Under the pieces are notes generated by a model. The model worked only from the letters and a program-made list of their open reading frames with translations, searched no databases and had not been told where the DNA came from. Source: Chelativorans sp. (GTDB lineage Bacteria > Pseudomonadota > Alphaproteobacteria > Rhizobiales > Rhizobiaceae). Taken from it: a DNA stretch of 64,000 bases. The position numbers were made by a program, and so were the translations under genes. Of the stretch, positions 3,901 to 31,681 are shown in pieces. How positions within the stretch are numbered: position 1 is the first letter of the stretch; the number at the start of each line of letters is the position of its first letter. The stretch lies in NCBI RefSeq assembly GCF_031180965.1, contig NZ_JAPSLH010000001.1, positions 62,001 through 126,000 on the forward strand, in the 5' to 3' direction.

Positions 3901-4087
3901 GAAAGACTGCCCCGATCCCCAGTCGGCGGGATTTACCCTGCCCGATCCCTGCCCCTTTCCCCGGAACGGCGAACTGCCGATATGAGGAAGGCCATTGCTA
4001 GCGCCATCGCTTGGTGCGGCGCTATTGCATTGGGGCAACACTCCACCCCAAATTGAGGGCGGCATCCGGAACCGCGGAGTGAAGAAG

Positions 4088-4477
4088 ATGAATGTGGGCG
4101 ATGTGGCGCGCCGTTCGGGCCTGCCGGCCAAGACCATCCGCTATTACGAGGAGATAGGCCTCGTCAGGCCAGCGCGCGCCGGCAATGGCTATCGTGCCTA
4201 TTCCGACGAGGATGTGCACAGGCTCGCCTTCCTGAAGCGGGCGCGCAGCCTCGGCTTCTCCATCGAGGAGTGCCGTCAGCTGCTGGAGCTGTACCAGGAC
4301 AAGTCGCGCGCCAGCCATGATGTGCAGAAGATCGCCGTCTCTCATGTGAAGGCCATCGAGGAGAAAATCCGCGAGCTTCAGGGCATGCGCTCGACGCTGC
4401 AGAAGCTGGTCGCCGCCTGCCACGGCGACCATCGCCCGGGCTGCCCCATCCTGGAGGACATCGCCGGGCACGGCTGA
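4088..4477 (+). CDS. CueR/HmrR-type MerR-family copper-responsive regulator
   Basis: A 129-residue MerR-family activator. The winged HTH is at residues 1-38 (VGDVARRSGLPAKTIRYYE), followed by the long dimer helix. The effector loop shows Cys111 and Cys119 with seven residues between (CHGDHRPGC), the spacing of the two Cu(I) ligands in CueR, and a Ser at position 76 typical of monovalent-metal sensors. It should twist promoters with long -35/-10 spacing in response to Cu(I). No copper ATPase or oxidase gene is next to it, so its targets must be elsewhere. A GTG three codons upstream (4079) is an alternative start. Confidence 0.87.
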   Translation: MNVGDVARRSGLPAKTIRYYEEIGLVRPARAGNGYRAYSDEDVHRLAFLKRARSLGFSIEECRQLLELYQDKSRASHDVQKIAVSHVKAIEEKIRELQGMRSTLQKLVAACHGDHRPGCPILEDIAGHG

Positions 4478-4527
4478 CGGCGCATATAGGTCTTTTTTCC
4501 TGCCGGCTTTGCTGGCATTGTGCGGCC

Positions 4528-5022
4528 ATGCCGATCGTATCGCCGATTCCCTTCAACCCGCTGGTGGATGGACGCCAGTCCGAGCGCGCGCTGGTCATCC
4601 GCCGCGGCGTCCAGCGCCTCCTGTCGCAGATGGGCGCCGTCGTCCTGCCGGAGCTTTCGCTCGCCACCGGGCGGCGGGCCGATCTTGTCGCGCTTACCGC
4701 CAGGGGCGACATCTGGATCATCGAGATAAAGTCATCGGTCGAGGATTTCCGCGTCGACCGCAAATGGCCGGAATACCGGCTGCATTCGGACCGCTTCTTC
4801 TTCGCCTCCCATCCCGACGTGCCGGAAGAGATCTTTCCGGAGGAATGCGGCTTCATCCTTTCCGACGGCTACGGCGCGGAGATACTGCGCGACGCGCCGG
4901 AACACCGGCTCCCCCCCGCCACGCGCAAGGCGCTGATGCTGCGCTTTGCCCGCGTCGGCGCCGCCCGGCTGACGGCGGCCGAACTCGCCGGCATCAGGAT
5001 ACCCGCTTTGGACGGCGATTGA
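4528..5022 (+). CDS. mmcB: MmcB-family DNA repair protein
   Basis: A 164-residue protein matching the MmcB family (formerly DUF1052), found across alphaproteobacteria and linked in Caulobacter to the SOS response and mitomycin resistance. The core ADLVALTARGDIWIIEIKSS has the nuclease-like D..E-x-K pattern of PD-(D/E)XK folds, followed by FRVDRKWPEYRLHSDRFFFA. The enzyme activity is not proven for the family. I looked for the alphaproteobacterial LexA site GTTC-N7-GTTC just upstream and did not see one, so SOS control here is uncertain. Confidence 0.85.
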   Translation: MPIVSPIPFNPLVDGRQSERALVIRRGVQRLLSQMGAVVLPELSLATGRRADLVALTARGDIWIIEIKSSVEDFRVDRKWPEYRLHSDRFFFASHPDVPEEIFPEECGFILSDGYGAEILRDAPEHRLPPATRKALMLRFARVGAARLTAAELAGIRIPALDGD

Positions 5023-5029
5023 GCCCTCC

Positions 5030-5241
5030 CCCTTGCGGGGCAGGACTATCGCATATGCCGTTTTCCCCACTCCGTCCCGCTTCGCGGGCCACCTCTCCCC
5101 CACTTCGTGGGGTAGAGGAAGGGTGCCGAGCCTTGCGGTCGGCGTTTCCTCTCCCCGGCGAGCGGGGGAGAGGTGGTCGGCGAAGCCGATCGGAGTGGGG
5201 GTCGAACCCCATATATGCGATTGCCCCTGCCTTGCGGGGAC
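5030..5241. repeat. Long palindromic intergenic repeat (RIME-like or MITE-like)
   Basis: Two arms of roughly 95 bases face each other. Both carry the order GCATAT, CCCCACTCCG, a CTTCG-loop hairpin, then CCACCTCTCCCCC. The CTTCG hairpin stem differs between arms but stays paired (CCCG/CGGG in the left arm, ATCGG/CCGAT in the right), which is compensatory change. The flanks of both arms also match (CCCC.TGC..GGGGCA in mirrored order). Such elements are common between genes in Rhizobium relatives. No transposase is present, so any movement would depend on a source elsewhere. Confidence 0.7.
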
Positions 5242-5399
5242 CCGGTGGGAAAACGCAAGTGAGGGGTGCTTTCGGAAAGCCCATCCGTCGCAAGGCGATG
5301 AGGGTGTGGATCGAATCGGCCCCGCCGTCCGGATGCGCAAAAAAAATTTGCAGCAAAAACAAGCTCCTACACGATTTCCGCATTTTTTCGCCGGAAAAT

Positions 5400-5408
5400 T
5401 TATCCACA
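5400..5408 (+). promoter_or_regulatory. Consensus DnaA box beside an AT-rich patch
   Basis: TTATCCACA is an exact match to the DnaA box consensus and follows a 60-base AT-rich stretch (runs of A at 5339-5346 and T near 5384). A weaker inverted box (TGTGGATcg) sits at 5305-5313. Two boxes alone do not make an origin, and the region has no other origin hallmark. It could instead be a DnaA-titrating or regulatory site, or chance. Confidence 0.35.
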
Positions 5409-5449
5409 CCCCCTGCAGCCCTCTTACAATCCGTCCCATCGCTCTTGCG

Positions 5450-5925
5450 GGAACCGGATGCGCACCGGGTGTTCGGGAGAGCGGCGGCAACCTCCCCCTC
5501 CAGGGATCGGTACCTGGAGGCATGATGAGGGCCCGCGACAGGCCGGCGGTGCCGGGATGCAGGGTCAGAGACTGCATCTCGGAAAAACGGGTGCTGGGTG
5601 AGAGCCGGCATCGCGGAAACCGCGGAGAGCCGCTAGGGTTTTTCCTTCGGCCCGGCAAAGACCACCCCCTTCATTGGGTGCAGCCGGGACGGAAGAGAAA
5701 CCCGAGTGACCGGCCAATGTCGGGACAGCGGCCGGCGGGGCGCGTGAGACGCGCCACATAAACTAACAGAGAGGCACGGATCACGCGCCCCGCTTCCCAC
5801 CTTCCTCAATGGCCAGACGGTAAAAAACCGGGCGTGGCAGCGATGACGCGTGCGTTCACCTCCCTTGAGAGGGTCGAAGGTATGAACGAGGCGCCCATCG
5901 AAACGCATCGCTGCCACGAAACCGC
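5450..5925. ncRNA. Candidate structured RNA region of unknown class
   Basis: Several stems are perfect by eye. GATGCAG (5556-5562) pairs with 5572-5578. GGAAAAAC (5581-5588) pairs with 5638-5645 and encloses two smaller hairpins. A 13-bp stem joins 5735-5747 to 5781-5793 and competes with a smaller hairpin at 5739-5755. A rod-like hairpin of 13 bp has arms at 5833-5845 and 5906-5918, with nested stems 853-858/883-888 and 862-865/870-873 (add 5000). The apical part carries CCTCCC, a possible anti-Shine-Dalgarno loop. Strand, ends and function are unknown; one or two separate RNAs are possible. Confidence 0.4.
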
Positions 5926-6128
5926 CCCTTTGCTTCAGCAGGAGAGATTCAGATAGTGACGGTGCCCTTCACCGGCCGTTAAACACTGGGGACAATCACC
6001 TGTTTAGGTGAATCGGTTACGTTTTCACATATAATGTGATGCGGGATCGTGCCCGAAGCTGTGGCAAGTGACCGAAGGGGAGCGCTGCTTTGCGACAAAA
6101 TTCCAAATCGGTGCGGACTAGAAAAAGC

Positions 6129-7484
6129 ATGTCGAAACAGTATTTCGGAACGGACGGGATCCGGGGGCGGGCCAACCGATTTCCCATGACTCCGGAAGTT
6201 GCCATGCGCGTCGGCATGGCGGCCGGGCTTTCCTTCCAGAACGGCAGTCACCGCCATCGCGTGGTGCTGGGCAAGGACACGCGCCTGTCCGGCTATATGA
6301 TCGAAAATGCGATGGTCGCGGGCTTCTGCGCGGCGGGCATGGATGTGTTCCTGCTCGGCCCGATCCCGACGCCCGCCGTCGCCATGCTCGTCCGCTCGTT
6401 GCGCGCCGATATCGGCGTCATGATCTCGGCATCGCATAACCCCTATTACGACAACGGCATCAAGCTGTTCGGGCCGGACGGCTACAAGCTGTCCGACAGC
6501 ATCGAGAGCCGCATCGAGGCGATGCTGGACAAGGATGTCGAGCTGACCCTTGCCGATTCGGACATGCTCGGCCGCGCCAAGCGCGTGGACGGCGTGCACG
6601 ACCGCTACATCGAATTTGCCAAGCGCACCCTGCCGCGCGACATGTCGCTTGCCGGCCTGCGCATCGTCGTCGATTGCGCCAATGGCGCAGCCTACAAGGT
6701 GGCGCCGGCCGCGCTCTGGGAGCTCGGCGCCGAGGTTGTGGCCATCAACGACGATCCCAACGGGTTCAACATCAATCTCGATTGCGGCTCCACCCATCCG
6801 TTGGGCCTTGCCAAGAAGGTGCACGAGGTGCGCGCCGATATCGGCATCGCCCTTGACGGAGATGCCGACCGGGTCGTCATCGTCGACGAGAACGGCACGG
6901 TCATCGACGGCGACCAGATCATGGCGCTCATCGCCCAGTCCTGGCACGAGCGCGAGAAGCTTCATGGCGGCGGCGTGGTGGCTACCGTCATGTCCAATCT
7001 CGGCCTGGAGCGGTTCCTGCGCGACATCGGCCTTTCGCTCCACCGCACCAAGGTCGGCGACCGCTATGTGGTCGAGCATATGCGCGAGCACGGACTCAAT
7101 GTCGGAGGCGAGCAGTCGGGGCATGTCATCCTTTCCGATTTTTCCACCTCCGGCGACGGGCTTGTGACCGCGCTCCAGGTGCTCGCCTGCATCAAACGCC
7201 TGAACAGGCCGGCGAGCGAGGTGTGCCGGAAATTCGAGCCGGTGCCGCAGGTGCTGAAGAATGTGCGTACGAGCGGCGGAAAGCCGCTTGAGAACGCCGC
7301 CGTCAAGGCGGCAATCGCTGATGCCCAGTCGCGGCTTGGAGAGTCGGGCCGCCTGGTGATCCGCCCCTCCGGCACCGAGCCGCTGATCCGCGTCATGGCC
7401 GAGGGCGACGATCCCGATCTCGTCCGCACGGTCGTCGACAACATTGTCGAGGCCATCGCCGACGCGAGGACGGTCGCGGCCTAG
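6129..7484 (+). CDS. glmM: Phosphoglucosamine mutase
   Basis: Converts glucosamine-6-phosphate to glucosamine-1-phosphate, the step that feeds UDP-GlcNAc for peptidoglycan and lipopolysaccharide. It has 451 residues. The phosphoserine loop is [15 protein letters not shown] with Ser102, the metal loop is DGDADR, and the C-terminal phosphate-binding loop is [12 protein letters not shown]. The ATG at 6129 gives the standard [14 protein letters not shown]-terminus; a TTG at 6090 in the same frame would add 13 atypical residues. The ribosome site is weak (GAAAAAG). It stands alone behind the gene-free kilobase and ends before a GC-rich hairpin. Confidence 0.97.
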
Positions 7485-7512
7485 ACACCGCTTCCAACAC
7501 GATGGAAGGGCC

Positions 7513-7541
7513 GGCCGGGCACGCCCCGGCCGTCGCCGTTT
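7513..7541 (+). terminator. Probable terminator after glmM
   Basis: GGCCGGG (7513-7519) pairs with CCCGGCC (7525-7531) over a five-base loop, followed by a short T run near 7538. The T tract is weak, so termination may be partial. Confidence 0.5.
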
Positions 7542-7579
7542 TCATGGTTCCGGGAGCGCAGCGGCGCGCCGCGTTAGGG

Positions 7580-7595
7580 TTAAGCGCAACTTAAC
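7580..7595 (+). promoter_or_regulatory. CtrA box upstream of first outer-membrane barrel gene
   Basis: TTAAGCGCAACTTAAC matches the full CtrA site TTAA-N7-TTAA(C) exactly. It lies 77 bases before the ATG, a usual promoter distance. CtrA is the cell-cycle response regulator of alphaproteobacteria and is known to influence outer-membrane protein genes in Brucella. Binding here is inferred from the motif only. Confidence 0.65.
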
Positions 7596-7671
7596 TTTTT
7601 TGCTGCAATCTTCGACAGGATTCAACCGGCCGTAGAGCGATGCGCGCTTGAGCGGCACATGGGGGATGAGA

Positions 7672-8523
7672 ATGTCGAATATGCTGAAGCCGCTCCTTGC
7701 CGCCTTGTTCCTGGCCCTTCCGTCCGGCGCCTACGCCGCCGATGTGTATGTCCCGGATCTCCCGCCTCCGCCGCCGCCCCAGATCATCGAGAAGGAAGTC
7801 GCGGTCGGCGGCTGGTATCTGCGCGGCGACGTCAACTACCACTGGTCCAAGCTGCGCGGGACTGAATACATCACCTACGGCCCGCCGCCCGGGACCAGCG
7901 AGTTCACCTCGACGGAGCTTGACGGCGCGCTCTCGCTGGGCGCCGGTATCGGCTACCAGATGACCCGTCATTTCCGCACCGACTTCACGGCGGATTACTG
8001 GTTCAAGTCCGATTTCCGCGGCACGACAGCGGGCTTCTGCGGCCCCGTCCCCTGCACCTCGACGGACTCGTCGAGCTACAGCGCGCTTCTGCTGATGGCC
8101 AATGCCTATGTCGATCTCGGCACCTTCAAGGGCATCACACCCTATGTCGGCGCAGGCATCGGCGGCGCCTATGTGAAATGGGACGATCTGCGCAACACGA
8201 TCGGCGAAGACAGCTGGGTGCACAAGGGCGCGAAGGAGTGGCGCTTCGCCTGGTCGCTGATGGCCGGCGCCTCCTACTGCCTCACCCAGAACCTGCAGCT
8301 CGACGCGGGCTACCGCTATACGCGCATCGCCGGCGGACGCATGTTCGAGGAGTCGGGTATCGGCGTCGGACCCGGCTTCGACGACGGCTTCAACGTCCAC
8401 GAAGCGCGCGCGGGTCTGCGTTATTCCTTCGGCGGATCGAACATCAACTGCGCTGTCCCGCAGGTTGTCGCCTACGAGCCGCCAGTCTATGTCCCGCCTG
8501 CAGAGCCGGTGGTCTATAAATAG
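7672..8523 (+). CDS. Outer-membrane beta-barrel protein (Omp25/31-like)
   Basis: A 283-residue barrel protein of the Omp25/31 or OmpA-barrel type. The signal peptide runs to about residue 25, with cleavage after AYA before ADVYVPD. A proline-rich segment follows (LPPPPPPQ). Next are alternating beta strands such as GWYLRGDVNYHWSK and the family-like LDAGYRYTRIAGG, with AGLRYSF near the end. An unusual C-terminal tail is rich in Pro, Val and Tyr (YEPPVYVPPAEPVVYK) and may reach the periplasm or cell wall. ATG 7672 was chosen for its GGGGGA ribosome site; 7666 is an alternative. Likely CtrA-controlled. Confidence 0.88.
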   Translation: MSNMLKPLLAALFLALPSGAYAADVYVPDLPPPPPPQIIEKEVAVGGWYLRGDVNYHWSKLRGTEYITYGPPPGTSEFTSTELDGALSLGAGIGYQMTRHFRTDFTADYWFKSDFRGTTAGFCGPVPCTSTDSSSYSALLLMANAYVDLGTFKGITPYVGAGIGGAYVKWDDLRNTIGEDSWVHKGAKEWRFAWSLMAGASYCLTQNLQLDAGYRYTRIAGGRMFEESGIGVGPGFDDGFNVHEARAGLRYSFGGSNINCAVPQVVAYEPPVYVPPAEPVVYK

Positions 8524-8545
8524 AACTTCCCCGTCCCCCATCCCA

Positions 8546-8574
8546 AGCCGCCCGGCCCCGCCGGGCGGCTTTTT
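8546..8574 (+). terminator. Rho-independent terminator after barrel gene 1
   Basis: AGCCGCCCGG (8546-8555) pairs perfectly with CCGGGCGGCT (8561-8570) over a five-base loop and runs into five T. This separates the two barrel genes into different transcription units. Confidence 0.9.
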
Positions 8575-8612
8575 CGTTTCGGCGGCCGCGCGACGGTAAA
8601 TCTCCGTTATCC

Positions 8613-8628
8613 TTAACCGGCGTTTAAC
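8613..8628 (+). promoter_or_regulatory. CtrA box upstream of second outer-membrane barrel gene
   Basis: TTAACCGGCGTTTAAC is an exact TTAA-N7-TTAA(C) CtrA site, 77 bases before the ATG at 8705. That is nearly the same distance as in the upstream barrel gene. A further GGTTAACAC half-site follows at 8635-8643. Confidence 0.65.
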
Positions 8629-8704
8629 CCGGATGGTTAACACTCTGCCAAAGACGGTGGCGGGGGCAGCTACGCTCCGTCGGCAATTTGCGGAGTGAAA
8701 ATCC

Positions 8705-9403
8705 ATGTGGAAGCCCTGCAGCCTTACCTTGCTCGTCGCGGCCGTGGCGGCTGCAGCGGCATTGCCCGCTGGCGCCGCCGACTACGACCCTCCCCTCGTG
8801 CTCGAGGATGCGCCGAATTACGTGCCCGTGGAGGTGGGGTCAGGCTGGTACCTGCGCGGCGACCTGACCTACAACATCAACGAATCGGTCTACGACCTCG
8901 ACGTGCTCGGCGAGCGGATGGAGAATACCCGCTTCGGCGGCAGCGTCGGTTTCGGCTACCATTTCACCGATTTGCTGCGGGCGGATGTCAATCTCGCCTA
9001 CCTCTCACGGGACAAGTTCGAGCTCGAAGACGGACTGGATGAAATCTCGGCGGAGAACCGCGTGCTTGCCGCGATGGTGAACGGCTATTTCGATCTCGGC
9101 ACCTTCGTCGGGGTCACTCCCTATGTGGGCGCCGGCGCGGGCGTTCTCTACTCAATGCACGAGATCTCGGTGGATTCGCCCACCCTCGGCGTCATGTTCG
9201 AGGCTACCGACAGGCAGTATGAATTCGCCTATGCCCTCAATGCTGGGGTGAATTATCAGGTAACGCAGAACCTTTCCGTCGATCTGGGCTACCAGTATCT
9301 GAGCTCTCCCGGCACACAATATGTGGACGTCGACTCGGGCGACCTCGAGAAAGGGCTCGATTACCACCAGGTCAAGCTCGGCCTGCGATACGATCTCTGG
9401 TGA
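8705..9403 (+). CDS. Outer-membrane beta-barrel protein
   Basis: A 232-residue paralogue of the barrel gene just upstream. It has a signal peptide of about 24 residues ending in AGA before ADYDPP. Both share the strands GWYLRGDLTYNIN and YFDLGTFVGVTPYVGAGAG and the ending VKLGLRYDLW, a terminal aromatic residue as in outer-membrane proteins. It lacks the Pro/Val/Tyr tail of its neighbour. The ATG follows a GGAG ribosome site. A separate promoter with its own CtrA site and its own terminator make it a single-gene unit. Pore activity cannot be inferred. Confidence 0.88.
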   Translation: MWKPCSLTLLVAAVAAAAALPAGAADYDPPLVLEDAPNYVPVEVGSGWYLRGDLTYNINESVYDLDVLGERMENTRFGGSVGFGYHFTDLLRADVNLAYLSRDKFELEDGLDEISAENRVLAAMVNGYFDLGTFVGVTPYVGAGAGVLYSMHEISVDSPTLGVMFEATDRQYEFAYALNAGVNYQVTQNLSVDLGYQYLSSPGTQYVDVDSGDLEKGLDYHQVKLGLRYDLW

Positions 9404-9420
9404 GCTGACGTATGAAAAAA

Positions 9421-9447
9421 GGCCGGCACTGAAGCCGGCCCTTTTTT
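9421..9447. terminator. Bidirectional terminator between barrel gene 2 and symporter gene
   Basis: GGCCGGC (9421-9427) pairs with GCCGGCC (9434-9440) over a six-base loop. It is flanked by six A on the left and six T on the right, so it can stop transcription from both converging genes. Confidence 0.88.
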
Positions 9448-9473
9448 CGTTCTCCGTCTTTCCGTTCGGCCGT

Positions 9474-10841
9474 TCAGGCGGCCTGCGGCGTCGGCTCCGC
9501 ATCGAGCACATCCGCCTCGCCGGCACGGTCGTACCGCGCCTGGTCGAGGATACCCGCGCGCTTGGCGACGATGGTCGGCACCAGCGCCTGGCCCGCCACA
9601 TTGACTGCAGTGCGGCCCATATCGAGGATCGGGTCCACTGCCAGAAGCAGGCCGACGCCCTGAAGCGGCAAGCCGAGCGTCGACAAAGTGAGCGTCAGCA
9701 TCACCACCGCGCCGGTGAGCCCGGCCGTGGCCGCCGACCCGATGACCGAAACGAAGGCGATCAGCAGGTAATCCTGGAAGGCCAGCGGGACATTGTAAAA
9801 TTCGGCGATGAAGATCGCCGCGATGGCCGGATAGATCGCGGCGCAGCCGTCCATCTTGGTCGTCGCTCCAAGCGGCACGGCAAAGGCCGCGTATTCCCGG
9901 GGCACACCGAGTTCGCGCTCGGTTACCGCCTCCGTCACCGGCAGGGTGCCGATCGAGGAGCGCGAGACGAAGGCAAGCTGGATGGCGGGCCAGGCGCCGG
10001 CGAAGTAGCGGACCGGATTGAGGCCGTGGACTGAAAGCAGGACCGGGTAGACGACCAGCAGCACGATGGCGAGGCCGAGATAGACGGCGGCCGAGAACCA
10101 GCCGAGTTGGCCAAGCGTATGCCAACCATACTGGGCCACCGCGTTTCCGAGGAGGCCGATCGTGCCGATCGGCGTCAGCCGGATCACCCACCAGAGGATC
10201 TTGCGCACAACGGCGAGCAGCGACCTGTTGAGCTCCAGGAAGGGCTCGGCCGCCTGACCGACGCGCAATGCCGCGATCCCCACCACGATGGAGACGACGA
10301 GGATCTGCAGGACGTTGAAGTTGAGGGAGGTCGTGGCGGCGCCGTCCGTCAGCTTGGTCGAAGCCTGCAGGCCGAACATGTTCACCGGCACGAGCCCCTT
10401 TAGGAAGTCGAGCCACGAACCGGTGGTGGACGGCGCGGTAGCCGCTGCCGCGTCGATCACCGCGCGGCTGCCCGGCTGGATGATGAGGCCGAGGGCTATG
10501 CCGATGATGACGGCGATCACCGCGGTTATGGCGAACCAGAGAAGGGTCTGCCACACCAGCGCGGCGGCATTGGACAATTCGCGCAGATTGCTGATGGACG
10601 CGACGATGGCCGTGAAGATCAGCGGCGGCACAAGCACCCGCAGCAACTGGACGAATATCGAGCCGATCGTCTGCAGGGTCTGGGCGAGCCAGTTGGGATT
10701 TCCGTCCGGACCGGTGCCCATTTCGCGGGCAATCAGGCCGAGAACGAGGCCGATCACCATCGCGGTGAGGACCTGAAAGCCGAAAGAACGGTAGAAGGGC
10801 TTCGGCTCCGCCGGCCGGGACGTCTGGGTTTGCGTAGTCAT
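9474..10841 (-). CDS. Dicarboxylate/amino acid:cation symporter (DAACS/SDF family)
   Basis: A 455-residue inner-membrane transporter of the sodium:dicarboxylate/glutamate symporter family. The N-terminal helix FGFQVLTAMVIGLVLGLIA and the later conserved block FAVPLGATTKMDGCAAIYPAIAAIF with the preceding hairpin SRSSIGTLPVTE match the substrate and ion-binding HP1/HP2 region. Eight membrane spans are expected. It imports C4-dicarboxylates, glutamate or aspartate; the substrate cannot be set from sequence. It is transcribed away from serC, and an inverted repeat 100 bases upstream may be its operator. Confidence 0.92.
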   Translation of the reverse strand: MTTQTQTSRPAEPKPFYRSFGFQVLTAMVIGLVLGLIAREMGTGPDGNPNWLAQTLQTIGSIFVQLLRVLVPPLIFTAIVASISNLRELSNAAALVWQTLLWFAITAVIAVIIGIALGLIIQPGSRAVIDAAAATAPSTTGSWLDFLKGLVPVNMFGLQASTKLTDGAATTSLNFNVLQILVVSIVVGIAALRVGQAAEPFLELNRSLLAVVRKILWWVIRLTPIGTIGLLGNAVAQYGWHTLGQLGWFSAAVYLGLAIVLLVVYPVLLSVHGLNPVRYFAGAWPAIQLAFVSRSSIGTLPVTEAVTERELGVPREYAAFAVPLGATTKMDGCAAIYPAIAAIFIAEFYNVPLAFQDYLLIAFVSVIGSAATAGLTGAVVMLTLTLSTLGLPLQGVGLLLAVDPILDMGRTAVNVAGQALVPTIVAKRAGILDQARYDRAGEADVLDAEPTPQAA

Positions 10842-21621: not shown

Positions 21622-23640
21622 CTAATTTCCCGATTCGGCCTCCAGCCAGCGCACGTCTTCCGGCGACAGGTTGATGTCGAGTGCGCGCAAGCTGTCGTCG
21701 AGCTCGGCCATCGTGCGCGGGCCGATGAGCGGCACGACGGGGAAGGGCTGCGACAGCACGTAAGCAAGCGCCACATGGATCGGCCTGCAGCCGAGCCTCT
21801 CGGCCATTTCCACGGCGCGGTCCCTGCGCTCGAAGTTCTTGTCAGAATACCAGACCCGCACGAGTTCCTTGTTATCGCGCTTGTCGCGGCCGGCGCGCTC
21901 GGTGAAGAAGCCGCGGCCCTGGCTGGACCAGGCGAAATTGGTGACCTGCCGCTCCTCGAGCCATGCCCTCCACGCCTCGTCCAAGGCGGCCACGCAGCCT
22001 GCCCAGATCGGGTCGAGCATTTCGGCAAGCGAGAAGTTGTTGGAGAGCGCCATGGGCGGCGTCTTGCCCGTGCGCTGCGCATACTCGATCGCCGCATCCA
22101 TGCGTTCGCGCGTCCAGTTTGAGCCGCCGAAGGGGCCGCGGATGCGGCCCGCCTTCACCTCGGCATCCATTGCATCGACGAACTCGTCCACCGGCACGTC
22201 CGGGTTGTCGCGATGCATGAAATAGACGTCGACATGATCGGTTTTGAGGCGCTCGAGCGACTCGGTGAGCTGTCGGCCGATGACCTCCGGATAGGTGAGG
22301 GGGGAGTGCGCTCCCTTGCCGATCAGGACCACCTCGTCGCGTACGCCGCGGCTTTCCACCCAGCCGCCGAAGACGCGCTCGCAGCGGCCCGAATGATAGA
22401 TCCAGGCAGTGTCGAAAGCATTGCCACCCTTTTCAAAGAAGGCGTCAAGCAGCGGAGCGGCGGCTGCGAAGGTCGGAAAATCCTCAAAGCCGAGCGCAAC
22501 CTGCGAGATCGGCTTCTTCAGGCCCGCGATCATACGGGTGCCGATGATCTCGGAGCGCCTCTCAAGCTTCTCGCCTTTGAGGGTGCGGGTGCGCAGCGCC
22601 GGTTTCTCGATCTCGTATTCCAGGCCCGCTGCCGCCCGCCACTTGTCCAGGACCTTCAGATTGCCGAGCGTATCGTCCCAGGTCATGCCGGGCGGCGAAA
22701 ACTCCTGCCGCCCCGCACGAATCGCCTCCGCCGCCGCATCGGCCTCGAAGGAATAAAGATGCCGCGGCTCCTCCACCGCCACGGTCTCGCGCGCGCCGTC
22801 TGCCTTGACGATCTCGATCCGGCCGGTCCCGCCCTGCCGCCCGGACGCGAACCAGAAATCCGCGACTTCGATGCGGCCGTTGGTGCCGTAGATGCGCAGC
22901 ACATTGTCCTGCTGCAGGGATACGGAGCAGGAGACCTCGGCGATGATGCCGCCCGGGAACTGGAGGATGGCCGATGCCCATTCATCCACACCGGATTGCC
23001 CAAGATGCGCCGCGCCCATCACCTTGTCCGGCTCGGCGAAGGCTTTCCCCTGGACAGATCCCGCAATCAGCCGCGCCATCGAAACGGGATAGCCGCCGAC
23101 ATCCAGGATGCCGCCGCCCGCCAGGTGGTTGGCATAGAGCCGGTGCTCGGGATCGAAGCGCGGCATGGCGAAGCCAAAGCCCGACTTGATCATCCGCACC
23201 TCGCCGATCACACCCTCGCGAATGAGCTCGGCAAGCCGGATCGTCTGCGGGTGCAGGCGATACATATAGCCTTCGCCGATGAAAGTGCCCGCCTTGCGCG
23301 CTGCATGGATGATGGCATCCGCCTCGAAGGCCGTGAGCCCCATCGGCTTTTCCACGATCACGTGCTTGCCGGCTTCGGCCGCCTTGATCGCCCATTCGGC
23401 ATGGCTCGGGTGCGGAGTCGCGATATAGACGGCGTCGATATCGGGATCCGCCAGCAGTGCCTCGTAGCCGTGATGTACACGCGCTCCGGGGAAGTGCTCG
23501 GCGAGGGCCGGGTTGCCGGGATTGCGCGTGCCAATCGCCATAAGTTGACCGGTTCGCGTGTCGGCGAGGCCGGAAGCGAAGGCTCTGGCAATTGTGCCCG
23601 GCCCGATGATGCCCCAGCGCAGATGGAAGGCGGCTGTCAT
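21622..23640 (-). CDS. Fusion of Gfo/Idh/MocA oxidoreductase and aldo/keto reductase
   Basis: One 672-residue frame joins two NAD(P)-dependent enzymes. The N-terminal half (about 1-330) is a Gfo/Idh/MocA dehydrogenase: Rossmann start LRWGIIGPGTIARAFASGL and the catalytic EKPMG at 97-101 (Lys98). The C-terminal half (about 350-672) is an aldo/keto reductase with all four catalytic residues in context: FDTAWIYHSGRCERVFG (Asp, Tyr), LIGKGAHSP (Lys) and VYFMHRDNPD (His). No stop or break separates them. The pair could oxidise and then reduce a sugar or inositol intermediate on one chain; the substrate is unknown. It diverges from an AraC regulator. Confidence 0.9.
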   Translation of the reverse strand: MTAAFHLRWGIIGPGTIARAFASGLADTRTGQLMAIGTRNPGNPALAEHFPGARVHHGYEALLADPDIDAVYIATPHPSHAEWAIKAAEAGKHVIVEKPMGLTAFEADAIIHAARKAGTFIGEGYMYRLHPQTIRLAELIREGVIGEVRMIKSGFGFAMPRFDPEHRLYANHLAGGGILDVGGYPVSMARLIAGSVQGKAFAEPDKVMGAAHLGQSGVDEWASAILQFPGGIIAEVSCSVSLQQDNVLRIYGTNGRIEVADFWFASGRQGGTGRIEIVKADGARETVAVEEPRHLYSFEADAAAEAIRAGRQEFSPPGMTWDDTLGNLKVLDKWRAAAGLEYEIEKPALRTRTLKGEKLERRSEIIGTRMIAGLKKPISQVALGFEDFPTFAAAAPLLDAFFEKGGNAFDTAWIYHSGRCERVFGGWVESRGVRDEVVLIGKGAHSPLTYPEVIGRQLTESLERLKTDHVDVYFMHRDNPDVPVDEFVDAMDAEVKAGRIRGPFGGSNWTRERMDAAIEYAQRTGKTPPMALSNNFSLAEMLDPIWAGCVAALDEAWRAWLEERQVTNFAWSSQGRGFFTERAGRDKRDNKELVRVWYSDKNFERRDRAVEMAERLGCRPIHVALAYVLSQPFPVVPLIGPRTMAELDDSLRALDINLSPEDVRWLEAESGN

Positions 23641-23840
23641 TTTCAAATCTCTTTCTGTTGTTTGCTGTCGTTGACCGTCTCGATCGAAGAGATTGGCCGG
23701 TCGGCCAGAATGGAGATGGCAAGCGCGGTGAGGGCGCCTTCCGAGCGGCGCTGCTCGCGTCCACGACGATCTGCTCGCGCGCATTGGCGGTAGCGTAACC
23801 CCGACTGGCCAGCCGAGCTGCTCGACCGCATCGATCCTTA
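23641..23840 (-). pseudogene. Possible frameshifted remnant upstream of the oxidoreductase fusion
   Basis: On the minus strand the last 32 codons before the fusion gene read GALTALAISILADRPISSIE followed by TVNDSKQQKEI and a TGA, with codon use like a real gene. Just upstream another frame reads AREQIVVDASSA and a third DAVEQLGWPVGV. This looks like a protein tail broken by frameshifts, but I do not recognise the family with certainty (it has the flavour of a sugar-regulator or kinase tail). The rest of the gap up to the AraC gene holds no feature I can support. Confidence 0.3.
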
Positions 23841-23963
23841 AGTCAGCGCGAGAGAGAACAACTGCATCGCATGGCCATGAAGGTCCTCCCTTTCCTGTTG
23901 CTCCGATTCAGAGGCTAGATTACCGTTCTTCGGGCCAGCGTCTTGCGTGATGGGAAGGCGAAC

Positions 23964-24896
23964 TTGTCCGATGGTAAGAATCCGGGAAAGCGTTACTGGG
24001 ACCCGCTGAAGAGCACGGTCGAGAGGGTTCCCAATACCCTGGTCGTCAGCCATATGCAGCCGGGTATCATGCCGGTGGCGCACTGGCACGCGCAGGTCGA
24101 GATCAACTACGTCTTCCGCGGGACCGTCGACTACGAGATGCACGGCCACCCCGTGCATCTGGAAGAGGGTGATCTCTGCATCTTCTGGGGCGGCCTGCCG
24201 CACCGGGTGGTCGACACGTCGGAGGATCCGTTCTACGTGGCCATCCACCTGCCGCTCATCCATTTTTTCCGCCTGCAGCTGCCGCCGGACATCCAGCAGC
24301 GGCTGATGCGTGGGGCCGCGCTGGTGACCGGCCGGCCGGATCCGGGGGATGCCACGAGTTTCGCGCGCTGGTCGGCCTATATGCAGTCCGGCGAGGCGTC
24401 TCGCGTGAACCATGCCCTCGAGGAGCTTTTGCTGCGCGTCGAACGCATCCGGTTCGATCCTTACCGGCTCGTGGAAGCGGACGACCTGCCTGCCACCCGC
24501 CCGGAAGCGACGGACCAGCAAAGTTTCCAGAATATCGGGCGCATCTGTGCCTTCGTGGTGGAGAACTTCCGGCATCAGATCGATTGCGCGGACATCGCGG
24601 TCTTCGCGGACATCCATCCGAAATACGCGATGAACGTATTCAAGAAATCGACCGGCATGACGCTCAACGAATATGTGAGCCTGCTGCGGCTCTCCTATGC
24701 GCAGGCCCTTCTGATGCAGGACGACGCGAAGGTGCTGCAGGTGGCGATGGACAGCGGCTTCGGGTCGCTCTCGGCCTTCAACAAGACCTTCCGCAAGATC
24801 GCCGGCATGAGTCCTTCTGAGTTCCGCCGCGGCGCGCGCCTGCGGCCGCTCTCCACCGCCGAAATCGGCAGGGCGGAGCACGGTTCCCCGCATTGA
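23964..24896 (+). CDS. AraC-family transcriptional regulator
   Basis: A regulator of about 310 residues with an N-terminal cupin sensor (HWHAQVEINYVFRGTVDYEM, then LEEGDLCIFWGGLPH) and a C-terminal double HTH (IAVFADIHPKYAMNVFKKST, then VLQVAMDSGFGSLSAFNKTF). No ATG fits. TTG 23964 was chosen because GGAAGG lies about seven bases before it; TTG 23943 has no ribosome site. It diverges from the oxidoreductase fusion, so it probably responds to the sugar-like substrate of that enzyme and controls its transcription; this is inference from position. Confidence 0.85.
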   Translation: MSDGKNPGKRYWDPLKSTVERVPNTLVVSHMQPGIMPVAHWHAQVEINYVFRGTVDYEMHGHPVHLEEGDLCIFWGGLPHRVVDTSEDPFYVAIHLPLIHFFRLQLPPDIQQRLMRGAALVTGRPDPGDATSFARWSAYMQSGEASRVNHALEELLLRVERIRFDPYRLVEADDLPATRPEATDQQSFQNIGRICAFVVENFRHQIDCADIAVFADIHPKYAMNVFKKSTGMTLNEYVSLLRLSYAQALLMQDDAKVLQVAMDSGFGSLSAFNKTFRKIAGMSPSEFRRGARLRPLSTAEIGRAEHGSPH

Positions 24897-25031: not shown

Positions 25032-25099
25032 TTGGCCCTAGGTTGACCACCTCAACTGACGGCGGAGAGGCCGCCGGAACAGGCGCTGGATGGTTCCCG

Positions 25100-26215
25100 A
25101 TGCGGATCGGTAAAATGGCTTCATTCTGGAGGCGGGCGGCAGGCGCCTTTCTGTTCCTGTGCCTTGCGGCATGCGGCACCCTCGCCTATGCGCAGGCCCA
25201 GCCGCAGCAGCCCATACCACCGGTCGTGAAGGTCGGCGTCTATGTCAGCCCGCCTTTCGTGATGAAGGACGGGGACCGCTACTCCGGCATGGCGATCGAT
25301 CTTTGGGACGTCGTTTCCACTCAGCTTCATCTCAGATCGACCTACCAGGAGTTTGCCAACTTCCGGGAGCTTCTCGACGCCGTGGCCGCTGGAAGGGTCG
25401 AGGTGGCGGTCACGGACGTTAGCATCACGGAGGACCGGGCCAAGGTCGTCGACTTCACGCATCCATGGTTCGACAGTGGTCTACGCGTGATGGTCCACTC
25501 CAGCCCAGGCTCAGGCCTGTCGGACATTTTCGGTCAGCTCGCCGATGCCGGGCATCTCATGAACTATGCCCTCATCGCTCTTCTCATCCTCCTGGTCTGC
25601 GGAGTGATGACGATCGTCGACCGGCGCTTCGACCCTGAGTTTCCTCAGCGCTGGCGTGAGGGTCTAGCCGAAAATTTCTACCACGTCATGTCGATGGCGA
25701 CGCAAGGGCAGACCGATCGCAAGAACCTCTTCGGCTGGCTCGGCCGTATCTGGCAGGGCATCTGGATGATCCTGGCCCTCGCCGTGGTCGCCTATATCAC
25801 ATCATCCATCACCAGCGTGATGACGGCATCCCACCTCACGAACCAGATCCAGAACGTGGCGGACTTGCAGGGCAAGTTGGTCGGGGTTCGGGAAGGAAGC
25901 GTGGCGGAGGAGTATATGAGCACCTCCTTCGCGGATGTGAAGCGCTTCGACCATCTAGCGGAAGCGGCGCGGGCACTGCTCGACGGCGAGCTGTCGGCGA
26001 TCGTCGACGAGGGCCCGGAGCTGGAATACTACGTCAATACTCATCCCGGCGAGCCGCTAGAAGTCGTCGGCAGCACGTTCCGTCCCGACAAATACGGCTT
26101 CGCTTTCACGCCGGGAAGCAGCCTCCTGAAGCCAGTCTCCGTCGCTTTGATAGGAATGCACGAGAGCGGCGAGCTGGAAAGGCTGAGGGCCAGGTATTTC
26201 GGATTTAATCCGTAG
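25100..26215 (+). CDS. Prokaryotic ionotropic glutamate receptor-like channel protein
   Basis: A 371-residue protein with the GluR0 layout. A signal peptide or first hydrophobic segment (about 12-32) is followed by ligand lobe S1 (42-135), a membrane span M1 (154-173), a pore loop (about 192-206), span M2 (219-243) and lobe S2 (250-371). S1 has the amino-acid-binding signature SITEDRAKVVDFTHPWFDSG, with Arg113 at the place of the conserved carboxylate-binding Arg. S2 has REGSVAEEY and IVDEGPELEYYV. The pore loop reads VMSMATQGQTDRKN, not the potassium filter TVGYGD. An inner-membrane ion channel or sensor gated by a small ligand is likely. The start is not certain (Met6 at 25115 is an alternative). 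Confidence 0.82.
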   Translation: MRIGKMASFWRRAAGAFLFLCLAACGTLAYAQAQPQQPIPPVVKVGVYVSPPFVMKDGDRYSGMAIDLWDVVSTQLHLRSTYQEFANFRELLDAVAAGRVEVAVTDVSITEDRAKVVDFTHPWFDSGLRVMVHSSPGSGLSDIFGQLADAGHLMNYALIALLILLVCGVMTIVDRRFDPEFPQRWREGLAENFYHVMSMATQGQTDRKNLFGWLGRIWQGIWMILALAVVAYITSSITSVMTASHLTNQIQNVADLQGKLVGVREGSVAEEYMSTSFADVKRFDHLAEAARALLDGELSAIVDEGPELEYYVNTHPGEPLEVVGSTFRPDKYGFAFTPGSSLLKPVSVALIGMHESGELERLRARYFGFNP

Positions 26216-28748: not shown

Positions 28749-29798
28749 TTAGCTGCGCTCGGCGCGGCTCAAGCGATATCCGGCCTTCCGCAGCAGCTCG
28801 ACCAGCCCGTTCGGTCCCGGCAGATGCATGGCACCGACGGCGATGAAGGCGCCGCCCTCCTCGATCAGCTTCTGCGAACGTTCGGCCATCACGTGATTGC
28901 GCGCATCGATCATGCGCTGCTCGAATGCCGAATAATCGGCGGCCTCTCCCTCTCCCATCGGCAGAAGCTTGCCCAAGGCGGGCCGGAACATACCTGTCCT
29001 CCCGTCCAGGTAAAGCGCGACCATGGTTTCGATCATATCGTCCATCCGGTCGCCCAGTTCGATCGCGCCGACCAGCCCCCGCACATGCAGTTCCATCGGC
29101 AGCGATGCCATCGCCGACAGCTGCTCGGCGACCGTCTCAAGTCCTGCGACCTTCTTGCCGGCGGCCTTAGCCTCCTTCGCAAGCTTGGCATCGAGAATGA
29201 TGGCGCCGGCCTGCTGGCGCTTCAGCTCGCAATCGGGCATCGAGACCAGCGATACCAGAATCCAAGGCTTCATCTTCGATATGCCGTCGAAGGGCGCGCC
29301 GCGTTCTTCGAACTCCTCCTCGACGATCTTGCGCTGGTCGGGCGTGAGGTGATCCGTCAGGCTCTCCCCTTGGGAAAACATCATCAGGCCGGGCTTCTCG
29401 AAAACAGCCGCCATCATTGCCGCCTCGTCCAGGATCTGCGTCGTCTCGATGGCCACTGTGCTTGCCAGATCGAAAGCCTCTTGCGCCTGGCCCGGCAACC
29501 TGGTCACGCGCGGATCGGTGACATGCATGGTGCCGAACAGATAGGAAGGAGCGGCGCCGTCCGCCTCGATGCGCCAAAGGAGACCCTCGCCATTTGGTGT
29601 TGCGGCGGCCTCATTTTCAATTTCGCGCAGCAGTGCGGGGTCCTCTGTCGCAAGCTGGGCCACAAGATTGGCCCCCTCGCAGGCTATCGGTTCCTCCGCC
29701 TGCGCCTGGGCGCCCGCTAACAGGAGCAAGGCCATCGCGAAGAGAAGATTTGCCGCGGCGGTGAGGGATAGGTTAGTCGCGCTTTCGGTGCGTTCCAT
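28749..29798 (-). CDS. TraB/GumN family protein
   Basis: A 349-residue exported protein of the TraB/GumN family. A signal peptide or anchor lies at about 10-36 (LLFAMALLLLAGAQAQA). The first family motif is LWRIEADGAAPSYLFGTMHVTDPRV and the second is the C-terminal GGAFIAVGAMHLPGPNGLVELLRKAGY; the paired GTMH and GAMHL are thought to form a metal-dependent hydrolase site. Its role in bacteria is not settled. ATG 29798 gives the proper signal peptide. It lies downstream of xerC on the same strand, 40 bases away. Confidence 0.9.
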   Translation of the reverse strand: MERTESATNLSLTAAANLLFAMALLLLAGAQAQAEEPIACEGANLVAQLATEDPALLREIENEAAATPNGEGLLWRIEADGAAPSYLFGTMHVTDPRVTRLPGQAQEAFDLASTVAIETTQILDEAAMMAAVFEKPGLMMFSQGESLTDHLTPDQRKIVEEEFEERGAPFDGISKMKPWILVSLVSMPDCELKRQQAGAIILDAKLAKEAKAAGKKVAGLETVAEQLSAMASLPMELHVRGLVGAIELGDRMDDMIETMVALYLDGRTGMFRPALGKLLPMGEGEAADYSAFEQRMIDARNHVMAERSQKLIEEGGAFIAVGAMHLPGPNGLVELLRKAGYRLSRAERS

Positions 29799-29838
29799 CC
29801 GCCCGCAGCTAGCGCCGAATCTGGGCGAAATTGGCGGC

Positions 29839-30780
29839 TTACGCCCGAGGATGCGCGTTTTCGTAGATTTCCAGGAGTCGTGATGTATCGACCGCGGTGT
29901 AGATCTGCGTGGTCGACAGGCTGGCATGGCCGAGAAGCTCCTGGATGGCGCGCAGATCGCCGCCGCGGGCGAGCAGATGCGTGGCGAAGGAGTGGCGCAG
30001 CGCATGCGGGGTGGCTGTCTCCGGCAGGTTCAGCGCAGAGCGCATCCTCTGCATCTCGCGTTGAATGATGGCCGGCTGCAGTCCTCCCCCGCGCGCGCCG
30101 CGGAAGAGCGGCGCTTCCCCGCCCAGATGATACGGGCAAAGGCGCTGATATTCCGCCACCGCTTCGGCTACCACCGGCAGTACCGGCACGACCCGCGTCT
30201 TGCCGCCCTTGCCGGTCACCCGCAGCGTCCCTGCCCGCAGCGCGGGGATATCCGCGCCTGTGAGACCCAGAGCCTCGCCGATGCGCAGGCCGGAGCCGTA
30301 GAGCAGGGCAAGGACCGCCGCGTTCCGTGCCGCGATCCAGGGCTCTTCCGCAAGCTGGCCTTCTCCGGATGCGACGCGCCTGGCATCGGCGGCGGCAAGC
30401 GGCTTCGGCAGCCCCTTGGGCGCACGCGGCGCGCGCAGCGCTCCGGCGCCCGCCGCATTGGCGAGGCCGCGCCTCTCCATGAAGCGCAGGAATGAACGAA
30501 TGGCCGCCAGGCCGCGTCCGACCGTGCGGGCGCCGGCGCCACCCGCCCGTCGCGCCGCAAGAAAGGCGCGCAGATCGGCGGGGCGCAAGTCGGCTATGTC
30601 GGCAATTCCGGGCGCGCCGCCGCAATGGCCCGTGAGGAACTGCAGGAACTGCCGCGTGTCCCGCTCATAGGCATCGAGGGTGAGCCGGGCCAGTCGCCGC
30701 TCCTCCTTCAGCGACGACAGCCAATCGGCGCGCGCCTTCTGAAGATCGGGTCTTGCGGAAACGAGAAATTCTTCGCTCAT
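29839..30780 (-). CDS. xerC: Tyrosine recombinase XerC
   Basis: A 313-residue site-specific recombinase that, with XerD, resolves chromosome dimers at dif. The SAM-like N-terminal domain (residues 15-103) is followed by the catalytic domain. Active residues are seen in context: Arg166 (GLRIGEAL), Lys191 (VTGKGGKTR), His259 and Arg262 (HALRHSFATH), His282-285 region (LLGHASLSTTQIYT) and Tyr294. Its place beside housekeeping genes and the full domain set favour XerC over a phage integrase. ATG 30780 gives a normal N-terminus. Confidence 0.92.
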   Translation of the reverse strand: MSEEFLVSARPDLQKARADWLSSLKEERRLARLTLDAYERDTRQFLQFLTGHCGGAPGIADIADLRPADLRAFLAARRAGGAGARTVGRGLAAIRSFLRFMERRGLANAAGAGALRAPRAPKGLPKPLAAADARRVASGEGQLAEEPWIAARNAAVLALLYGSGLRIGEALGLTGADIPALRAGTLRVTGKGGKTRVVPVLPVVAEAVAEYQRLCPYHLGGEAPLFRGARGGGLQPAIIQREMQRMRSALNLPETATPHALRHSFATHLLARGGDLRAIQELLGHASLSTTQIYTAVDTSRLLEIYENAHPRA

Positions 30781-30847
30781 TGCCGGTGCTCCTGCCCGCC
30801 AGGAGTTTTGCGCGCGCTGGTTAGGATCGGGTGAACACGGACGTGCC

Positions 30848-31681
30848 CTAGCGGCGTGCCCGGCTGGAGAGGACCTGCATGGCTTTTTCGAGGGTGCTGC
30901 GAAAAACCGTATCGAACGAGACTCCACCGGCCCCCCACCGCTCGAGCGACTCCTCCGTGAGCAGCCGCCAGGTGGAGGACCAACGAAGAGCTTTTTCATC
31001 CCATGTAAGCGTGCCGGCCAGGAGCACCTTGGCCCCCAGCTCCCGGCGCGCGTCCTCGAGCCGCTCGCGGTCCGCCCAGCTGAGCGGCGTATCGCCGGCT
31101 ACCCTCGCCAGCGCTGCTTGGCCGGGAAAATCGATCGTCAACCCGAGCTCGGCGCCGGTTTGCGTCAGCGCTTCCCGCTGCGCGGCACCGGCTTCCGCCC
31201 CCTCGCCCAACATGAATTGCTGCGTCCCGTTGTCGATGCTGACAGCAAGCGTGATGGGCGGCCGGTCGAGCCAAGGCTCATGCCCGAGCTCCCGCAGCGC
31301 CCGGTCGACCTTCGCGCGCGCGAACTCCACTGTGAGGATGTGGGGCCTATCGCGCGTCCCCTGCTCGTCATGCACGGGGATGCCGGCCATGCGGTCGCGA
31401 AGCTCGTAGTCTTGCACGAACTCGGCGGCCCGTACTGCGAGACCGACTACCTTGGGCGAGCCGGCAAGGTCCGGGTCCCCCGAGAGCTTCACCAGCACGC
31501 GCTCGAGCGATGCGGCAAAGCCGCGCTGTTTCTCGTGCTCCTGCGTACCGGTTATGATCGTCGACGCGCGATAAAGCTCGCCCACATGCTCCGAAGCGCC
31601 GCCGGCGCCAGCTAATGCCAGCAGGATCGAAACCGCGGCGCATAGCGCGCAGGCTGTTCGACCGAAAAGCGCAACAACCAT
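30848..31681 (-). CDS. DUF2066 periplasmic protein
   Basis: A 277-residue exported protein with a signal peptide of about 29 residues (ALCAAVSILLALAGAGGA). The DUF2066 region starts at YRASTIITGTQEHEKQRGFA and continues with VLVKLSGDPDLAGSPKVV. The function is unknown. It lies upstream of xerC on the same strand and may be cotranscribed with it. Confidence 0.86.
   Translation of the reverse strand: MVVALFGRTACALCAAVSILLALAGAGGASEHVGELYRASTIITGTQEHEKQRGFAASLERVLVKLSGDPDLAGSPKVVGLAVRAAEFVQDYELRDRMAGIPVHDEQGTRDRPHILTVEFARAKVDRALRELGHEPWLDRPPITLAVSIDNGTQQFMLGEGAEAGAAQREALTQTGAELGLTIDFPGQAALARVAGDTPLSWADRERLEDARRELGAKVLLAGTLTWDEKALRWSSTWRLLTEESLERWGAGGVSFDTVFRSTLEKAMQVLSSRARR

Follow-up and report, generated by a model that had tools for sequence, protein, structure and literature searches.

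A glutamate-receptor-type gene of Chelativorans whose predicted pore lacks the potassium filter, and the bacterial clade to which it belongs

GluR0 of Synechocystis (slr1257) is the only prokaryotic glutamate receptor for which the literature that we searched gives a measured channel function, and it is K+-selective. It has a K+-channel filter (PMC12332018, available part); both of its termini lie outside, it conducts K+ and shows K+ uptake activity, and under KCl stress it influences the volume of the cell (PMC13099474, available part). A survey of 22 prokaryotic receptors with the topology S1 lobe, two spans with a pore loop, S2 lobe found 12 with the K+ filter and 10 without it, the latter known as Group 2 (Ger et al. 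2010, PMC2950845). In that work the P regions of Group 2 are only termed unrecognised, several of its members are annotated as binding proteins, and, of the two groups, Group 2 is stated to lie closer to the human receptors; an Arg in S1 and an acid in S2 hold the amino-acid ligand in the prokaryotic receptors (PMC2950845). Prokaryotic receptors devoid of the K+ filter have thus been in print since 2010, and the preliminary description of the gene studied here, which supposed a link between ligand and ion flow by a route not described for GluR0, went too far in this respect. In the open literature (that is, outside subscription papers) we found no description of a TSGK-type filter, the kind that prevails among the relatives presented below, or of a current from a non-K+ prokaryotic receptor.

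The window (the whole stretch of Chelativorans sp. DNA analysed here, 64,000 nucleotides) contains an open reading frame that starts with ATG at 25100 and ends with the stop codon at 26213-26215 (Table 1); with an alternative TTG start in the same frame, at 25043, the product would have 390 aa. It matches three Pfam models above their cut-offs, SBP_bac_3 (76.8 bits, cut-off 26.4), Lig_chan-Glu_bd (40.3 bits, cut-off 30), and Lig_chan (39.7 bits, cut-off 30.8), so that these matches are not due to chance, and it is the single Lig_chan match at E ≤ 0.01 in the 4.37-Mb host genome. Pfam and the predicted structure place S1, M1, the pore helix (P), M2, and S2 in one chain that stops after S2, with neither M4 nor N-terminal domain. 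GluR0 shares this domain order, the ligand-lobe family (1iit and 1ii5 were matched), and the lack of M4 and N-terminal domain, but has the K+-channel filter (PMC12332018, available part) where the window protein has TQGQTD instead of the TVGYGD-like sequence of GluR0 and Group 1. With its pore loop between two spans, the S1 and S2 lobes on either side, and no recognised K+ filter, the protein agrees with Group 2, by description rather than by sequence comparison (PMC2950845). The GluR0-like order in 371 residues read in the preliminary description is therefore borne out by the Pfam profiles, including the Lig_chan and SBP_bac_3 searches that it had proposed, by the structure model, and by Foldseek; the absence of a potassium filter also stands, and the sequences that it quoted, VMSMATQGQTDRKN and AYITSSITSV, both occur in the translation as given.

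Table 1. Features of the glutamate-receptor-type gene in the window
Feature	Coordinates	Strand	Basis or remark
Whole gene, prokaryotic glutamate-receptor-type protein	25100..26215	+	371 aa plus stop
N-terminal hydrophobic helix, residues 6-29	25115..25186	+	Model helix and sequence
S1 ligand-binding lobe, residues 43-133	25226..25498	+	Pfam Lig_chan-Glu_bd 43-133
R113, Arg predicted to bind the ligand carboxylate	25436-25438	+	Present in 80/80 (best 80 of 166 relatives); role per PMC2950845
M1 helix, residues 152-177	25553..25630	+	Structure model
Pore helix, residues 185-202	25652..25705	+	Structure model; F193 in 80/80 (best 80 of 166)
Filter TQGQTD, residues 201-206, net charge -1	25700..25717	+	Replaces TVGYGD; register from hhalign and residue counting
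Post-filter loop RKNLFG, residues 207-212	25718..25735	+	Mean pairwise identity 0.90
M2 helix, residues 213-248, gate-like YITSSITSVMT	25736..25843	+	Structure model
S2 ligand-binding lobe, residues 250-368 (about)	25847..26203	+	Pfam, model, conservation
E304, acid predicted to pair with the ligand amino group	26009-26011	+	D in 80/80 (best 80 of 166)

The N-terminal helix, judging from model and sequence, may be an export signal. The signal region includes LAAC (25163-25174), a possible lipobox which, if real, would make the protein lipid-anchored besides membrane-spanning, and it is followed by AYA-Q, a possible signal-peptidase I site. By homology with GluR0, the same membrane topology is presumed (PMC13099474, available part). 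A promoter and terminator scan gave no promoter-like site and one terminator-like site within the reading frame, at chance level. A phage origin was considered and rejected, with 0 matches in 50,697 phage records.

An AlphaFold2 monomer model built from 88 aligned sequences (mean pLDDT 90.4, pTM 0.78) predicts M1, the pore helix, a loop at 203-212, and M2, flanked by the two ligand lobes, with mean pLDDT of 89 at residues 191-200 and 83 at 201-210. A 12-row alignment of close relatives had given a poor pore (pLDDT about 45 at 181-210) and the deeper alignment was used instead; its K+-type sequences may have pushed the loop toward a K+-channel-like shape. In Foldseek, the first binding protein is preceded by 37 AMPA-receptor chains, whose alignments span 364-382 columns and cover both domains, with a best E of 3.1e-23 and moderate query-normalised TM-scores (0.47-0.62 in these first 37 rows). 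Since the model contains both a pore helix and a loop, the two hydrophobic stretches would form a pore module and not the plain hairpin that had been named as fatal to a channel reading.

The register of the filter can be obtained by counting from the aromatic residue of the pore helix: F193 is ten residues from G203, as is the Tyr from the first filter Gly in the K+-type receptor L014, and TQGQTD therefore overlies TVGYGD. Comparison of the clade and K+-type membrane profiles with hhalign (97.6%) marks the two as homologous and likewise aligns TSG onto TVG. By the same counting residue 201 is the equivalent of the Q/R site, with T in the window protein and in 77/80 of the best 80 of 166 relatives. 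Direct alignments with the plant receptor GLR3.4 offer an alternative, pairing its Arg666 with R207 through a two-residue gap in the pore helix; if Phe663 of GLR3.4 is the Q/R/N site, Arg666 stands at +3, like residue 204 from T201. The +4 residue from that site is Glu in plant GLRs (PMC12226733, available part). Under either register, a basic residue would be common to GLR3.4 and most of the clade; the window protein itself has Q at 204 and hence shares only R207. The GLR3.4 alignment sets SYTASLTSILT against YITSSITSVMT, which thereby occupies the place of the animal SYTANLAAF, as had been proposed.

Sequence and fold point to different nearest receptors. Searched with a membrane profile built from 19 clade members, the PDB yields two sequences at E ≤ 1: AtGLR3.4 (sequence E 0.0049, stretch E 0.014), the sole glutamate receptor of the two, and Lmo2059, a K+ channel (E 0.067, M2 only); no K+ channel does better and no animal receptor appears at this threshold. 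The membrane profile of 11 K+-type receptors finds 527 PDB sequences, K+ channels first at 8e-14. The clade pore profile aligns with plant GLR at 91.7% in hhalign. In the whole-sequence PDB search, plant GLR3.4, AMPA and NMDA receptors, and 2pyy, a receptor from Nostoc, are among the top matches; AtGLR3.4 (7lzh) is the best full-length receptor (E 2e-33), followed by GluN3A (1.5e-22) and GluA2 (6e-19), in a comparison with many animal receptors but a single full-length one from plants. GLR3.4 is thus, weakly, the nearest solved pore domain by sequence, and the likeness to the plant pore is a lead rather than a result, AMPA receptors coming first by fold and GLR3.4 by sequence. Plant GLRs have a basic filter residue, as most of the clade does, and their gate TASLTSILT compares with TSSITSVMT, but they also have an N-terminal domain, M4, the FF at the filter entrance (FF..HRE filter), and the +4 Glu, none of which the window protein has, and the pore resemblance is weak. 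With AMPA receptors the window protein shares the ligand and pore domain fold (Foldseek E 3e-23) and a filter glutamine and glycine; they have M4 and an N-terminal domain, both absent here, and the Q/R-site Gln, +4 acid, and SYTANLAAF gate of the animal type are likewise lacking. In GluA2 the acid for the ligand amino group is Glu, as E304 would be here. The GluA2 loop presumably has two more residues between the filter Gly and the 'GR' of M2 than the window protein.

Matches at E ≤ 1e-10 occur in 17 of 61 genomes searched, the window's among them, 12 with its kind and five with other receptors. A scan of named genomes, using two peptide patterns located outside the pore, found 166 relatives, and all fractions over 80 refer to the best 80 of 166. 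These 80 span Alpha-, Beta-, and Gammaproteobacteria, Bacteroidota (Chitinophaga, Parapedobacter), and Cyanobacteriota (Synechococcus sp. SynAce01). By identity, the closest of the sequences in the tree described below is L019 from Chelativorans sp. J32 (62% over 345 columns). Paracoccus denitrificans has a TSGR member (L128), and one Group 2 accession presumably comes from this same species. Matches on Salmonella enterica plasmids (H15-H18, 43-45% identity) are annotated as substrate-binding proteins, and 'transporter substrate-binding domain-containing protein' is the annotation of 18/25 among the plasmid matches listed (76 further).

The usual filter of the clade is TSG[KR]..RKN. Residue 204 is K or R in 74/80 (K 57, R 17, E 2, and Q, T, G, and N once each) and residue 202 is S in 69, T in 7, K in 2, and N and A in 1 each, with Q in 0/80; G203 and W213 are present in 80/80, R207 and N209 in 79/80 each, and S239, M241, and T242 of M2 in 80/80 each. 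Neither GYG nor GFG occurs in the pore loop of any of the 80 named clade members; an acid within residues 201-206 is found in only 3/80, and residue 205 (T in the window) is acidic in 0/80. The animal-type pore that the preliminary description had extended from this protein to its family does not survive these counts, and animal likeness as a family-wide trait was rejected because the filter residues and charges of the relatives differ. By mean pairwise identity over the same 80, the post-filter loop is the most conserved of nine stretches compared (0.90), followed by pore helix (0.75), M2 (0.70), filter (0.65), M1-P loop (0.62), M1 (0.61), S1 (0.57), S2 (0.52), and linker (0.40). As pore helix, post-filter loop, and M2 exceed both ligand lobes, the pore appears more constrained than the sensor, which also speaks against a non-pore hairpin. 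In the distant relative L018 (1498-2586, - strand; 24% identity), a proline-rich charged stretch replaces the pore helix while both ligand lobes and both spans are kept. The objection that homologues might be non-channel sensors is thus touched by this one remote protein.

A tree of 122 rows (115 different), computed quickly and lacking bootstrap, places the 98 TSGK-clade rows, the window protein included, on one side of a branch (SH-aLRT 100) with a long stem (2.17); the branches among the remaining rows are long as well. The 98 rows come from Pseudomonadota, Bacteroidota, and Cyanobacteriota. Rows had been assigned to the TSGK group by filter and likeness, and their falling on one branch indicates that filter type tracks ancestry. 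The net charge of residues 201-206 among the best 80 of 166 relatives is +1 in 71/80, +2 in 2/80, 0 in 5/80, and -1 in 2/80 (L020 and L022, filter TKGEAE), the last value being that of the window. Later searches by order and phylum added 31 further loci (L010 was already in the set; in one search 7/36 non-window matches had no locus and stay outside the charge count), 30 of them at +1 (three by eye) and one, L198 (TQGETS), at -1. Eight of these loci duplicate earlier ones, which leaves 22/23 at +1, with L198 at -1, as new evidence; in one of the later searches L198 is moreover the top match to the window. A -1 filter thus occurs, among all members read, only in the window protein, L020, L022, and L198, and QG at 202-203 only in the window protein and L198. 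These four form a clade in a tree of 33 chosen rows (support 96/89) that persists after removal of the filter columns (91/63, 86% of bootstrap trees), suggesting a moderately supported sub-clade; the next branch outside it is L019, with TSGKTS. TQGQTD is best read from these sequences as a derived exception and a late change within the sub-clade, and its likeness to the animal QQGCD as local and, most simply, late.

A census of 297 genomes of the window's family yielded 65 Lig_chan matches in 62 genomes, all 65 of which were read: 46 belong to the TSGK clade (38 recognised by pattern and 8 by eye), 11 are K+-filter receptors, one has a TQATTG loop (L107), and the remaining seven, which stay below 40 bits against the receptor profile, are probably K+ channels of the ordinary sort. 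One bacterial family therefore houses both filter kinds, in a census that is not an independent sample since at least 21/65 of its proteins are identical to named loci over the last 250 residues. In four of the 46 (L178, L183, L184, and L191) the basic residue, K or R, stands at 202, with S or T at 204 (TKGSLPS and similar loops), and the charge is still net positive, so that TSG[KR] is not universal in the clade. Further non-K+ filters are TQASTG in L130 (Rhizobium tumorigenes plasmid), akin to that of L107, and ITRGPFN and ITKGPFN in L129 and L132 on Vibrionaceae replicons; loss or replacement of the K+ signature may have happened on several occasions. Contig 64 of G465, a 1.9-Mb genome of the window's class, carries four tandem receptor-like genes at 3948-9760 (L137, L154, L161, and L162), and the two that were read have other pore loops, IAVLNEAGD and VVTSENVVDG.

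We consider it rather probable that the window protein forms, as one of four subunits, a channel of the prokaryotic glutamate-receptor kind that is gated by amino acids and does not select for K+. The domain order, the predicted monomer fold, the conservation, the loss of the K+ signature, and the charge difference form the basis of this reading, from which we infer the tetramer, gating, ligand class, and ion selectivity. A periplasmic amino acid would close the S1/S2 clamshell onto the predicted contacts R113 and E304, closure would pull M2 and open the gate at YITSSITSVMT, and ions would cross the filter T201-Q202-G203-Q204-T205-D206, which in this inverted pore would lie towards the cytoplasm; gating would be GluR0-like with a different filter. 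The channel is expected to pass cations with weak selectivity because its filter is net negative and residue 204, in a clade with mostly Lys/Arg in the filter, is Q or E in all four members of the window protein's sub-clade. Retention of a K+ preference by a degenerate filter seems very improbable: by residue counting TQGQTD does overlie TVGYGD and keeps its T, G, and D, but V, Y, and the second G are gone, GYG and GFG are absent from the relatives, and the clade profile matches K+ channels poorly.

The same fold might instead serve a non-conducting, membrane-anchored amino-acid sensor or a docking protein for an ABC importer, which we regard as unlikely. The prevailing annotation of the plasmid matches listed, the variable filter sequence, and L018, whose missing pore helix suggests that some homologues may be sensors only and so counts against a channel, favour it, as does a general amino-acid binding-protein gene (importer) near loci of the L021-L042 group; yet the three largest neighbour clusters are confined to that group, no ABC domain was detected in the ten nearby window ORFs scanned, the two spans and pore loop set the protein apart from ABC-transporter binding proteins, and the best-conserved stretches are precisely those of the pore. 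It is also conceivable, if quite unlikely, that a ring of filter Lys/Arg makes the pores of most of the clade permeable to anions or biased toward them, the window's sub-clade having turned back toward cations. The frequency of K/R at 204, the positive charge in 73/80, and the rarity of filter acids (best 80 of 166) suit this idea, as do homomeric GluA2(R), which with Arg at the Q/R site has a PCl/PCs of about 0.14 without auxiliary subunits but negligible Cl- flux with gamma-2 (PMC6754398, available part), and Arg666 at the filter of plant GLR3.4, for which an anionic route was termed plausible from a model (PMC11479355, available part). However, basic residues on the cytoplasmic side may merely follow the positive-inside rule. 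Moreover, the filter Tyr side chain at the place of residue 204 in K+ channels is directed away from the pore. A broader version, in which an inverted K+ pore became anion-permeable or anion-leaning by the TSG[KR] ring in a three-phylum clade, the sub-clade (TQGQTD, TQGETS, and TKGEAE) re-inverted its charge to conduct cations, and plant GLRs with Arg666 use the same device, appears distinctly improbable to us; its grounds are the Cl- permeability of GluA2(R) and the GLR3.4 anionic-route model (PMC6754398 and PMC11479355, available parts).

The channel without K+ selectivity that we favour would belong to a large, conserved clade without the K+ filter, able to show how the receptor family lost K+ selectivity, and whose records, as encountered, are mostly annotated as binding proteins. 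The window filter, opposite in charge to those of nearly all close relatives, makes with them a natural pair for asking what these pores pass, and the clade offers small proteins, free of M4 and N-terminal domain, for gauging the effect of a single filter charge. This bears on which ions plant GLR pores conduct, described as unpredictable from known channels (PMC11479355, available part); were the anion-permeable pore real, plant GLRs with Arg666 would use the same device as the clade.

Grouping the ORFs around 81 of these genes gave 92 clusters, and none of them reveals a partner gene that accompanies the window's kind from one group to another. The three largest, with 20, 19, and 15 of the 81 loci, occur only in L021-L042, a Brucella/Ochrobactrum/Falsochrobactrum group plus M. 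soli, and one of them is the general amino-acid binding-protein gene; smaller clusters (8-11 loci) draw on several groups and, judging by their examples, contain widespread families, an SDR-type enzyme and an ABC ATPase among them. The window locus figures in just one cluster, together with one other locus, and the neighbours of the window gene, L019, L020, and L022 are unlike one another. Directly upstream and in the same direction lies a gene for an AraC-type regulator with a cupin domain (23943-24896, +), not seen beside L019, L020, and L022. Further upstream, a 720-aa frame (21622-23784, -) joins a GFO/IDH/MocA dehydrogenase and an aldo/keto reductase, a possible natural fusion. On the other side, a TraB/GumN-family frame and a tyrosine recombinase with phage-integrase domains (28749-30005, -, and 29839-30999, -, respectively) overlap in different frames at the 5' end of the former, whose true start is probably further in.
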